Shown here piece after piece: positions 2,998 to 7,180 of a stretch of 52,059 nt of DNA. The notes under the pieces are model-generated. The model made no database searches, had not been told where the DNA came from, and worked only from the letters and a program-made list of their open reading frames with translations. The translations under genes were made by a program, and so were the position numbers. Position 1 is the first letter of the stretch. Each line of letters begins with the position of its first letter. Source of the stretch: Armatimonadota bacterium (GTDB lineage: Bacteria > Armatimonadota > UBA5829 > JAUSEB01); NCBI GenBank assembly GCA_030649165.1, contig JAUSGG010000060.1:1-52059 (forward strand), given 5' to 3'.

Positions 2998-3017
2998 TGG
3001 TTCAGTTAACTGAACCA
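2998..3017. promoter_or_regulatory. Perfect 20-bp palindrome, candidate operator of the GntR-type regulator
   Basis: TGGTTCAGTTAACTGAACCA is its own reverse complement. It lies about 10-30 nt downstream of the predicted start of the regulator transcript and 72 nt before its ATG, a position that would block transcription if bound. Perfect symmetry of this length fits a dimeric GntR/LacI-type protein. Binding is inference. Confidence 0.55.
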
Positions 3018-3061: not shown

Positions 3062-3331
3062 TACGAAGAAAATTGGTTTGATCAAAATCAGGTATTATTA
3101 CCAGCCACGTTCTGAATGGCCGCCAGGAGTGGCCTGATGGTGCAGTCCAATGTATTGGACTGGTTGGCAGCAATGGCAGCGTTGGTGGTTGTCGGCTGTC
3201 AGATCTGTCGGACAGGTCCGACCCTTCCGACTCCTTCGACTCTCTCTCCAACCTTGACACACCGCCAAAGCGAAGGTATCCTGAACTCAGAAGATACACG
3301 CCGGGCAAAGGCCGGCGCGCCCATTCACATA
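3062..3331. other. Divergent intergenic region upstream of the corrinoid operon
   Basis: No gene is supported here. The reading frame of the corrinoid protein stays open back to 3116, but that extension is Thr/Pro-rich and unlike the family. A perfect 10-bp palindrome, TTTGATCAAA, lies near 3076-3085, and TATTAT close by could be a -10 element on the plus strand. No clear plus-strand promoter with both boxes was found, and no cobalamin-riboswitch consensus was seen. Confidence 0.4.
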
Positions 3332-3952
3332 ATGGAAGACCTCATAAAAAGCGTTCTTACAGGGGATAGCCGTCAAGCCAGGGAAGACGCCGCCAGGCTC
3401 GTGAGTTGTGGGACTCCGGCGCAGGCCATAGTCGTGGACGGCCTTGCTTCGGCTATGAGTCAGCTCGACAGCAAGTGTTCAGTGGACGACTTCGACCTCC
3501 TCGCCATTATGCTCGCCGGCAGGTGCGTGCTGCAGGTAATCGACTTCCTCTACCAGTCCGATGCCGTTTCCGCATCGTGGTCGAAGGGCGTCGCCGTTCT
3601 CGGCACAATACAGGGCGACGTTCACGATTTGGGCAAGAACATCGTTAAGGCCGTGTTCTCCGGGGCCGGATACCAGATAGTAGACCTCGGCACGGGCGTG
3701 GCGCCTCGACGGTTCGTGGAAGCCGCGGGGGAGACGCAGGCGGATTTCATCATGGTTTCCAGCCTGCTTACCACGTCTCTTGCGAACATCAAACCGATAC
3801 GCGATCTGCTGCCCGGCAACAACGGAGCGCTCGTGATCGCGGGAGGCGCCGCAGTCGAGCAGGCGTCGGCCGCCGACCTGAACGTCGATTTCACCGCCGC
3901 CAACGTCTTTGACGGGCTTCGCTTCTGTGACAACAAGGTGGGAGCGTCATGA
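3332..3952 (+). CDS. Stand-alone corrinoid (B12-binding) protein, MtaC/MtbC-like
   Basis: A 206-residue cytoplasmic corrinoid protein. Residues 1-85 are the helical cap (starts MEDLIKSVLTGD) and 86-206 the Rossmann-like B12 domain. The lower-ligand signature D96-x-H98-x-x-G101 (GDVHDLGKNIV), the VSSLLTTS loop and the GGAAV loop are intact. Such proteins carry a methyl group between a substrate methyltransferase and a second methyltransferase. ATG 3332 is chosen because it matches the family start; no good Shine-Dalgarno precedes it, and the frame is open to 3116. Its TGA overlaps the next ATG (ATGA), implying translational coupling. No substrate-specific MtaB/MttB-type partner or reductive activase is in the window, so the methyl donor is unknown. 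Confidence 0.88.
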   Translation: MEDLIKSVLTGDSRQAREDAARLVSCGTPAQAIVVDGLASAMSQLDSKCSVDDFDLLAIMLAGRCVLQVIDFLYQSDAVSASWSKGVAVLGTIQGDVHDLGKNIVKAVFSGAGYQIVDLGTGVAPRRFVEAAGETQADFIMVSSLLTTSLANIKPIRDLLPGNNGALVIAGGAAVEQASAADLNVDFTAANVFDGLRFCDNKVGAS

Positions 3953-4956
3953 ACTCACTCGACCGTGTGTCCGCGGCTATCCACATGCAGCCGGTTGATA
4001 GAACGCCGGTCATCCCGCTCATCGCCGGGTGGACGGCGGGCTTCACCGGACGCAAGCTCAACGACTATCTACTGGGCGGTGATTGCATGGCCGCGTGTCT
4101 CCTGGAAGCGCAAGAGCGGTTGGGACACGACGCTATGCTGATCTTCGCCGATATCGCCTTGGAGGCCGAAGCCGCCGGGACAAAGCTGGAGTATGTGGAA
4201 GGCCAGCACCCCAACCTAGCTGAATACGCCGTGAACGCCACGGAAGACGTCGCCCGCCTTCGACTGCCCGACCCGCAAGAGTCGGGCCGAATGCCCGGAG
4301 CGCTGGAAGCGTGCAGCATTATGCGGCAGTCAGTCCGCGACGAGGTAGGCGTCGTGGGGCTGGTAACCGGACCGATGTCCATCGCGGCCAATCTGACTTT
4401 CATCGGCGACCTGCTGTATATGATCGCCGACGATCCGGCGGCCTTCCGCGCGCTCCTCGATTTCGCTCTGGAGGTGAGCGCCGTCTACGCGGCCTCTCTG
4501 ATCACAGCCGGGGCGCATTGCATCAGTATAGCCGATCCGGCCGGAACGCCGACGGCCTTGCCCAAGGACATCTTCCGCGAGGAGTATATCCCGCGCGCCC
4601 ACCGCCTTGTCGAACGCGTCAAAGAATCGGGCTCGCCAGCTGTCGGGTTCTTCCTGTGGGGGCTTGGTCCGGACACTTTGCCCGACTGCGCATCGACTGG
4701 AGCCGACGTTTTGCACCTCGACCACCAAATCCCGCTGAAGAATGCATTCAGCATCGTTCCCGACAAGTGTGTCGCCGGCAACATCAAGGCTTACGCATTC
4801 GCCAATGACAGCCCGGCCTTAATGAAAAGCGCGTGCCGTGAGGCCATAGAGTTATCACAAGGCCGGAACGGGTATATACTGGCGTCCGGAGGCGAGGTCC
4901 CTCTCGACGCAAAAGCAGAGAACATCGCCGCAATGATCGAAACGGCCCGGAGTTGA
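3949..4956 (+). CDS. Uroporphyrinogen decarboxylase-fold methyltransferase homologue (MtaA-like) lacking zinc ligands
   Basis: A 335-residue UroD-fold protein of the MtaA/MtbA/CmuA group, which normally moves a methyl group from a corrinoid protein to a zinc-bound thiol. Family landmarks include MQPVDRTPVIP near the N-terminus, GPMSIAANL around 141-149 and GNIKAY around 277-282. The Zn motif H-x-C...C is replaced: by eye F235-L-W237 stands where HxC belongs and G315 (ASGGEVP) where the last Cys belongs, with normal spacing between them. It should therefore not activate a thiol in the usual way. ATGA overlap with the corrinoid gene and a 4-nt gap to the GAF/SpoIIE gene place it in one operon. 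Tetrahydrofolate chemistry, binding-only or sensory roles are open. Confidence 0.82.
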   Translation: MNSLDRVSAAIHMQPVDRTPVIPLIAGWTAGFTGRKLNDYLLGGDCMAACLLEAQERLGHDAMLIFADIALEAEAAGTKLEYVEGQHPNLAEYAVNATEDVARLRLPDPQESGRMPGALEACSIMRQSVRDEVGVVGLVTGPMSIAANLTFIGDLLYMIADDPAAFRALLDFALEVSAVYAASLITAGAHCISIADPAGTPTALPKDIFREEYIPRAHRLVERVKESGSPAVGFFLWGLGPDTLPDCASTGADVLHLDHQIPLKNAFSIVPDKCVAGNIKAYAFANDSPALMKSACREAIELSQGRNGYILASGGEVPLDAKAENIAAMIETARS

Positions 4957-4960
4957 TCAC

Positions 4961-7180
4961 ATGAACCTTCCCTTGCCCGCACGGGCATTGTCCAAACTCA
5001 TACAGGCCATCGGCTATGTTTCGTCTAACCGGGAGGACATTTTCGACCTGGCGGCGGGGCAAATCATGGAGCTTTTTGACGTCGACGTCTGCTTCTTCTC
5101 CGTTCCCGCAAAGGACGGCGGGATGCGAGTCGCCGGAGTGAAGAGTTCCGACCGGCGATTGGAGAACGCCCTTGCTGGAAAGGTCTTCGCCAATCCGTGC
5201 CCTGCGTTCAGGGACGGTATGCTTGTTTGCGTGCACGACACGGCGGCGGATGACACGTGCTCCGACGGTCTGCTTCGCGGTTGGGCAGGATCTCACCTCT
5301 GCGTCCCGCTGACGATTCGAGGGAACCGACTCGGGAGTATGACCGTGGCCGCGAAGTCCTCTCACATGTTTTCTCCGGAGGAGATAGACCTTTACCTCTC
5401 GATTGCCTCGCTCGTGGCGATTGCGGTCCAGAACGCGGATATGTACTCCGTGTCCGAACGCCAGGCTTGCGAATTGCGGGACCAGGTGCGAGAGAAAACC
5501 CGCAAAGTCAGCGCCGTGAACCGCATTTCCGAACGGATAAACGCCGCCACCTCACGAGAAGAGGTGATGGCCGCCCTGACGGACGGCATCAACGATATAG
5601 CAGCGTGCGACGCGGCTACAGTAGCGTTGATCGACGGCGGCTCGGTGACAGTCTCGGTCGTCCGCGGAAACCCGCCCGGCATTGCCTCGGAACCTGTTCC
5701 TCTGTCCGAGACGGCGCTCGGGGAAGTTGCGAAAGCCGGCAAGGCCCGTGTCCACAGCGGGGGCGTCCCGGACCACGCCAGGTATCTGGTCGGTCGAGGC
5801 CGCTCATTCGCCATTGCGCCGCTGGTCGCGGGCGACAGAATCTTCGGCTCCTTGAACATGGCCAGGACGCGCTCGCCCAACCTGAAGCACTCGGACCTGC
5901 CGAATCTCGTGCAGGTCGCCGGACAGGTCGCCGCCGCGCTGATGCGGATCGAGCTGTTCGAGCGCGAACGAAACGCGGCGTCGGAACTGAAGACGCTGTA
6001 CGACGCATCGAGCGCGTTCACTTCCACAGTCCGTATGCGCGATACGCTCAGGATCATCAGCCGGCAATTGGCCGAAGCGACACGAAGCGCGGCGTGCCTG
6101 CTGTTCAAACTGGACGGCGAGTCCGTCACGCTTGCGGCCTCCTACGGCGGATCCATCGACCGCGCCCATCCGTCACTTCGCGTAGCCGTGCCGCCGAACT
6201 TCCTCCGATCCGCGTCGTCTGCCAGGCAAGTCACGCCGGAGGAACAGACCGGCTCCGCCCGCGGATGGTTGAAGGCGCTGGCCAGGCATCTTGGCGAGAA
6301 TATCATGCTCGTGCCGATCGTGGACAGAGACGAACCTGTGGCGGCGGCAATCGTCGCCAGGCCGGGCGACCCCTTCGGCGAAGCGGACCTCCGCGTCGCA
6401 TCCGCGATAGCGGGGCAAGCGGCGGTCGCGATCCAGGCATCGCAGGTCTACGAGCACGAGCGGACCATCGCCGAGGTGTTCCAGAAGAGCCTGCTGCCTC
6501 CCCCGGACTACAGACGGGCGAAACTATGCGTAGCCGGCAAGTACCAGCCCGCCCTGGAAGAAGCCGATGTGGGCGGGGATTTCTACGACATCATTGAGAT
6601 CGACGATGATCTGGTCGGCATAGCGGTCGGTGACATCTCGGGCAAGGGCCTGATCGCCGCCACACAAGCCGCGGCGGTTCAACACATGCTGGAGGCTTAC
6701 GCGATCGAGGACCCGTCTCCCTCCGTAGCCCTGGCAAGGCTGAACAACGCGGTATGCCACTCCCTGCGCGAGGGCTTTGCGACACTCTTCTACGGACTGA
6801 TCGACCTGAAACGCTGCACATTGACTTACGCTAACGCGGGCCACGAACTGCCGGTAAGGATGAGCAACGGGAGGCCCTGCCACCCGCTTGAGGTGACAGG
6901 CCCGGCGCTCGCGATTTCCCCCGACGCGATCTATTCGGACCTGACGATTGAGATGGGCGAACGCGACCTGGTCTTGTGCTACACGGACGGAATCACCGAG
7001 GCGCGCCGCGGCGAGGGGTTCTGGGGATACGAAGGGCTGGTCGAGGCTCTGCGCGACTGCCCATCTCACGAGCCAAGGATCGTAGTGGACCATGTCTACG
7101 AAAGGGCCCTGGAGTACTCGCGCGGGCGGCTGGCGGACGATGTGGCGTTGTTGGCGATCACACAAGGGGAGGGGTTTTAG
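4961..7180 (+). CDS. Triple-GAF sensor with C-terminal SpoIIE/RsbU-type PP2C phosphatase
   Basis: A soluble 739-residue signalling protein. There are three GAF-like domains (about 20-165, 185-330 and 345-495) joined by charged helices, then a SpoIIE-type PP2C phosphatase (about 510-735). The phosphatase carries its metal-binding acidic motifs (EADVGGDFYDI, GDISGKG, YTDGITEAR, LADDVALL) and the FQKSLLPP lead-in typical of RsbU-like enzymes, so it should be active on a phospho-Ser/Thr protein such as an anti-sigma antagonist. GAF domains bind small ligands, nucleotides, haem or bilins; the ligand is not predictable. A GGAG site precedes ATG 4961. It sits 4 nt after the methyltransferase-like gene, which suggests that corrinoid or one-carbon status feeds this switch. 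No anti-sigma partner lies nearby. Confidence 0.9.
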   Translation: MNLPLPARALSKLIQAIGYVSSNREDIFDLAAGQIMELFDVDVCFFSVPAKDGGMRVAGVKSSDRRLENALAGKVFANPCPAFRDGMLVCVHDTAADDTCSDGLLRGWAGSHLCVPLTIRGNRLGSMTVAAKSSHMFSPEEIDLYLSIASLVAIAVQNADMYSVSERQACELRDQVREKTRKVSAVNRISERINAATSREEVMAALTDGINDIAACDAATVALIDGGSVTVSVVRGNPPGIASEPVPLSETALGEVAKAGKARVHSGGVPDHARYLVGRGRSFAIAPLVAGDRIFGSLNMARTRSPNLKHSDLPNLVQVAGQVAAALMRIELFERERNAASELKTLYDASSAFTSTVRMRDTLRIISRQLAEATRSAACLLFKLDGESVTLAASYGGSIDRAHPSLRVAVPPNFLRSASSARQVTPEEQTGSARGWLKALARHLGENIMLVPIVDRDEPVAAAIVARPGDPFGEADLRVASAIAGQAAVAIQASQVYEHERTIAEVFQKSLLPPPDYRRAKLCVAGKYQPALEEADVGGDFYDIIEIDDDLVGIAVGDISGKGLIAATQAAAVQHMLEAYAIEDPSPSVALARLNNAVCHSLREGFATLFYGLIDLKRCTLTYANAGHELPVRMSNGRPCHPLEVTGPALAISPDAIYSDLTIEMGERDLVLCYTDGITEARRGEGFWGYEGLVEALRDCPSHEPRIVVDHVYERALEYSRGRLADDVALLAITQGEGF

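Follow-up and report, generated by a model that had tools for sequence, protein, structure and literature searches.

In Bacillus subtilis, RsbQ activates RsbP, a PAS-coiled-coil-PPM phosphatase encoded next to it, and the two have been proposed as a two-part sensing module (excerpt of PMC3183031). In RsbZ of Clostridioides difficile, long helices connect tandem GAF domains with a PPM domain, and control through a coiled-coil linker has been proposed across GAF-, PAS- and RR-PPM phosphatases, RsbZ included (excerpt of PMC12143880). Signalling based on B12 is known mainly from light-sensing proteins of the CarH type, and for the photocobilin SasPcob, links to STAS and SpoIIE proteins were predicted (excerpt of PMC10979010). 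Operons that hold both corrinoid and UroD-superfamily genes are described for the three-component Cdm system (excerpt of PMC13222342) and for MtaA-like proteins (excerpt of PMC10418091). The operon analysed here lies at 3332–7180 of a 52,059-nucleotide (nt) contig of an Armatimonadota bacterium, JAUSGG010000060.1. This whole stretch, called the window, corresponds to contig C218 in a draft genome (G000) of 5.48 Mb. The operon encodes a corrinoid protein, a UroD-superfamily protein and a SpoIIE/RsbU-type PP2C phosphatase with three GAF domains. We give about even odds (a probability of roughly 0.5) to the reading that the operon encodes a sensor-output pair made up of the corrinoid protein and the phosphatase, in which a methyltransferase-type corrinoid protein would have been recruited from methyl carriage.

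Each of the known systems resembles the operon in part. As in RsbQ-RsbP, the gene of an enzyme-fold protein lies beside that of a PPM phosphatase which is soluble and has a sensor domain at its N-terminus and a helical linker. RsbQ, however, is an alpha/beta hydrolase and RsbP has a single PAS domain; in the operon, their places are taken by a corrinoid protein and three GAF domains, joined in one lineage by a UroD-like protein, and the contact is predicted. RsbZ shares the layout of GAF domains, long helices and PPM domain, but the excerpt of PMC12143880 mentions no B12 protein for it. With the photocobilins and CarH, the operon has in common a B12-binding domain, there in signalling; however, its corrinoid protein lacks W-(10)x-EH, the helical-bundle motif of CarH-type photoreceptors (9–11 spacer residues allowed), leaves no room for a bilin domain in its 206 amino acids, and groups with methyl-carrier corrinoid proteins. 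In contrast to the three-component methyltransferases, there is no local second methyltransferase or activase, the cap motif and the zinc ligands are lost, a phosphatase is present instead, and the sister genome of the window lineage has no UroD gene at this locus. Judged from its sequences, the operon is neither CarH-like nor a standard three-component methyltransferase system. No description of a corrinoid and GAF-SpoIIE combination was found among the matches listed for the open-access literature, which was the part covered; among those listed for the stressosome and B12 domains in that literature, none contained the term cobalamin-binding.

The corrinoid gene (3332–3952), the UroD-like gene (3949–4956, 335 amino acids) and the phosphatase gene (4961–7180, 739 amino acids) all lie on the forward strand. 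The first two share a 4-nt ATGA overlap (3949–3952) and the last two are separated by a 4-nt gap (4957–4960). This arrangement, given in the original prediction from the letters alone, was borne out by the open reading frames and by Pfam matches far from chance (B12-binding 2.3e-19, URO-D 2e-64, SpoIIE 8.9e-46). The corrinoid frame is open back to 3116, and the ATG at 3332 is its likely start.

Two of these genes persist in a second genome, which is evidence for the sensor-output reading. The three proteins were each searched against a phylum sample of 291 genomes (290 besides G000). The sister genome G001 (same family, other genus, 95% complete), the only other family member in the sample, encodes a corrinoid orthologue of 75% identity, the next best in other genomes having 33–35%. 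It also holds the only full-length orthologue of the phosphatase (65%, residues 1–737); the remaining matches with E of 1e-60 or lower begin at residue 101 or later and are 28–36% identical. The two genes are adjacent in G001, in the same order. No UroD gene stands at that locus: the corrinoid stop and the phosphatase start are only 86 nt apart, and the strongest UroD match in all of G001 (E 7e-7) is found at a different place. The conserved unit is therefore the pair and not the triplet, and in that organism the pair is independent of the UroD gene. The 3' end of the UroD gene gave a suggestive score against the 86-nt gap, reached by 6 of 2000 shuffles; for the 5' end, 1982 of 2000 reached the score, which gives no support. 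Going by these scores, the gene may have been lost in G001 or gained in the lineage of the window.

The neighbourhood search proposed in the original prediction, which looked to conservation of all three genes, returned no triplet besides the window and the pair in G001 only. A scan of the GTDB r220 contigs likewise found the pair in G001 only, although its misses are weak evidence, as it used two strict N-terminal peptide patterns. The triplet was therefore rejected as a widespread unit; what is kept in a relative is the corrinoid-phosphatase pair. The lack of conservation in relatives that the original prediction had named as its refutation applies to the triplet, and the pair escapes it. 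Two further genes, Big_7 (62%) and the glycosidase-like GHL10 (65–68%), follow downstream in convergent orientation in both genomes, and the identities of the corrinoid protein and the phosphatase are as high as those of these neighbours. Outside the four kept genes, the neighbourhoods diverge: a pyridine-nucleotide-disulphide oxidoreductase gene follows GHL10 in the window and other genes do so in G001, and upstream the window has a GntR/LacI-type regulator gene and G001 an RsbW-like kinase gene. That two genera keep the corrinoid gene and the GAF-SpoIIE gene together, in a small block beyond which the gene content varies, is thus supported. The kinase (L155 9090–9617, divergent and adjoining the G001 operon, its name a reading of its sequence) was considered as a conserved partner and rejected, as in G000 the orthologue (69%) is found away from the operon, on contig C92. 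The gene beside that orthologue looks, by reading of its sequence, like tilS.

The corrinoid protein is MtaC/MtgC-like, with a remodelled cap. The cobalamin-binding signature (DxHxxG, SxL, GG) is kept as DVHDLG at 96–101, SSL at 143 and GG at 171. The Pfam B12-binding_2 match falls just below its cut-off, and no NCBIfam corrinoid family reaches its own, the best being TIGR02370 with 104.7 bits vs. 215.3. In an alignment with 39 homologues from Armatimonadota, conservation reaches 90% or more in 45 columns; the window and G001 proteins depart from 22 of them, in 21 cases with the same residue in both, and the B12 signature residues are unchanged. Eight of the 22 changes fall at residues 46–66, in the cap, and seven at 182–202, near the C-terminus. 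In the cap, V-P-E-x-L has become L-L-A/Q-x-M, with P57, E58, L60 and A65 replaced. The motif P-[EDQH]-x-L, present in 98 of 100 homologues (both exceptions at one locus, L197), is thereby missing, the sequence reading DDFDLLAIM in the window and DDFDLLQIM in G001. In a midpoint-rooted tree of 102 tips, the stem of the two proteins measures 1.93 vs. 0.71 for the next longest internal branch, and their tips only 0.23 and 0.16. In sequence terms, this is a history of fast change followed by constraint.

The original prediction had also stated that no substrate methyltransferase, activase or energy gene accompanies the operon. This holds directly beside the three genes and not for the genome as a whole. 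Each genome has one RACo-type activase (contig C239 in G000), a name read from a ferredoxin-plus-ASKHA-like sequence without a family search. MTTB-family proteins, four in G000 and two in G001, are encoded away from the operon in both, which answers in part whether such an enzyme is a regular partner. A second, canonical corrinoid protein occurs in both genomes as well (87% identical between them); its gene adjoins RACo in G001 and stands at a contig edge in G000 (C78). As far as these assignments go, both genomes encode, in trans, what corrinoid methyl transfer requires.

These parts are what the main rival explanation draws on. It states that a metabolic corrinoid module came by chance to lie upstream of a GAF-SpoIIE regulator of the ordinary kind, that the two share a transcript, and that the corrinoid protein is still a methyl carrier for MTTB in trans, so that the phosphatase is a bystander beside a metabolic remnant. 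GAF- and PAS-SpoIIE genes are indeed common (14 SpoIIE matches in G000 including the operon's own, 11 with an E of 3e-37 or lower), and the flanking Big_7 and GHL10 genes are likewise conserved in place. However, both genomes already own a canonical corrinoid protein, beside RACo in G001, the operon protein has given up the cap motif that nearly all homologues keep, and the pair stays in place in G001 despite the absence of UroD. Within 1 kb of 100 other corrinoid homologues, a RACo gene was found 44 times and a UroD gene 10 times, and a GAF or PP2C gene never, with less than 1 kb of sequence on one side in 17 cases. We regard the chance association as unlikely, though it is the alternative to be taken most seriously.

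The phosphatase itself corresponds to the original prediction, which had recognised an RsbU-type PP2C phosphatase with three GAF domains and intact metal motifs. Pfam places three GAF stretches before the SpoIIE domain, and the motifs GGDFYD, GDISGKG, YTDGITEA and DDVALL include the aspartates expected for PPM metal binding. They are intact in G001 as well, the only differences being GGDFFD and DDVILL. The predicted structure (mean confidence, pLDDT, 76.4) contains long helices between GAF1 and GAF2 (139–195, with one break), between GAF2 and GAF3 (310–353) and between GAF3 and the PP2C domain (474–511).

Under the sensor-output reading, an MtaC/MtgC-like protein would have been recruited away from methyl carriage while still, as we infer from its residues, binding cobalamin. 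The state of the cobalamin (methylated or not, the redox state of the cobalt, loaded or empty) would set its binding to the N-terminal GAF part of the phosphatase. The putative signal would then pass along the long helical linkers to the PP2C domain, and this would dephosphorylate a STAS antagonist, its presumed target, and alter the output of partner switching. The UroD-like protein would be an accessory of the window lineage only, and dispensable: possibly an enzyme that needs no zinc and uses a specific methyl donor to charge the sensor, or else a non-catalytic binding partner. The most far-reaching version, in which the corrinoid protein is a dedicated sensor of cobalamin or methyl status that directly controls the serine phosphatase, and partner switching thereby follows one-carbon or B12 status, with the zinc-less UroD relative as reader or charging enzyme in the window lineage, is tentative and would have to be put at about one chance in three.

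The UroD-like protein is predicted with high confidence (pLDDT 97.1) to have the UroD/MtaA fold, the closest structure being MtaA, 4ay7 (template-modelling score, TM, 0.92; root-mean-square deviation 2.0). The positions of the H, C and C residues, which MtaA uses for zinc, read F235, W237 and G315 in the alignment, and H-x-C...C is absent. All three ligands are present in 43 of 61 homologues, and in only two of the 61 besides the window protein are all three missing. A second corrinoid-UroD pair, at L078 3732–5518 (contig C74 of genome G041), also has a UroD protein without any of the three. No orthologue was found in the 290 other genomes of the phylum sample (best 32–33%). The closest protein is a paralogue in G000 itself (36%), which has neither a corrinoid gene nor a phosphatase beside it. 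In 38 UroD neighbourhoods, taken from the best matches, a corrinoid gene occurred six times in the examined stretch and a GAF or PP2C gene not once.

The loss of the zinc ligands speaks against an MtaA-type thiol methyltransferase, not against any catalysis, which is still conceivable because CdmB, of the UroD superfamily, and the Moorella O-demethylase work without zinc (excerpt of PMC13222342). A second alternative builds on this: the UroD-like protein would be a zinc-independent methyltransferase I, as CdmB is, transferring a methyl group to the corrinoid protein from one specific donor, and the methyl-corrinoid would be the signal to the phosphatase, with an MTTB protein in trans or no enzyme at all in G001. 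The open frame, the intact fold and a G+C content at third codon positions (0.737) close to that of the neighbours (0.738 and 0.770) are in its favour, as is the zinc independence of CdmB and the Moorella enzyme. On the other hand, the UroD gene is absent from G001, nothing above 36% identity was found in the phylum sample, and the protein is known as one sequence only. We consider such a substrate-sensing triplet improbable. The original prediction had the corrinoid protein and the UroD-like protein together report methyl or B12 status to a partner-switching pathway. With UroD missing from the sister and its zinc ligands lost, a methyltransferase pair feeding the phosphatase is therefore not what is conserved, while the pairing of corrinoid protein and phosphatase, kept in two genera with a diverged cap and unchanged B12 residues, is supported; the idea is partly supported.

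A CarH-like adenosylcobalamin light switch feeding the PP2C phosphatase, for which the links predicted for SasPcob might speak (excerpt of PMC10979010), is very improbable, as the CarH-type motif is missing and photocobilins rank far below methyltransferase-type chains among the solved relatives of the corrinoid protein (8j2w at 5.7e-6 vs. 1y80, the closest, at 5.9e-23).

Upstream, a promoter scan gave a likely operon promoter on the forward strand at 3254–3282, with TTGACA and TATCCT spaced by 17 nt, 50 nt before the corrinoid start. Identical hexamers with the same spacing occur 112 nt before the corrinoid start in G001. The best 32-mer shared by the two upstream regions is identical at 24 of 32 positions, a value reached by none of 2000 single-base shuffles of the G001 stretch; this count somewhat overstates the match, because the 32-mer was picked after the match had been seen. 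Rfam gave no match of any kind in the window at gathering thresholds, and so no B12 riboswitch. A GntR/LacI-type regulator gene lies further upstream on the opposite strand (1802–2944), and its promoter region contains a perfect 18-bp palindrome, GGTTCAGTTAACTGAACC, at 2999–3016. Near copies occur twice on contig C210 of G000 (one and two mismatches) and once, weakly, on C242 (three), vs. none for a reversed-pattern control. About 80 bp past GGTTCAGTTAACTGAACC, a palindrome-like motif, GGTAWTATTACC (3089–3100), was recognised by eye in the window and at both C210 copies. One of the C210 palindromes adjoins a stretch (L263 5830–5960) that resembles, by eye, the start of the window GntR gene, has no open frame and is probably a degraded copy of it; it shares its gap with a PAS-SpoIIE gene. 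The palindrome was not adopted as an operator of the operon, which has its own promoter, and more likely belongs to the GntR regulator because its copies recur near this apparent degraded copy. The same contig carries, at L263 9278–11978, a multihaem cytochrome-like cluster with many CxxCH motifs beside biotin synthesis-like genes (names given by eye).

Several points weigh against the sensor-output reading. Above all, the pair is carried by two genomes only and, because two convergent neighbours are kept in the same block, its adjacency could be plain synteny. The contact between the proteins is deduced only from the operon and from co-conservation. GAF1 is poorly modelled, and the GAF domains may sense something else, the corrinoid protein being only co-expressed. 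The changes in the cap could be an adaptation to another methyl substrate and not to signalling. The search for a cognate antagonist, suggested in the original prediction, gave 15 STAS matches for G000 and 9 for G001, and no such gene lies in or beside the operon.

The reading can be tested with three small soluble proteins. If true, B12 chemistry would reach gene control by a second path, through a phosphatase of the general-stress type, and an input would be found for one of the many orphan GAF-SpoIIE phosphatases. The arrangement of the operon in these two related uncultured bacteria suggests that a B12 protein of metabolic origin came to serve as a sensor.

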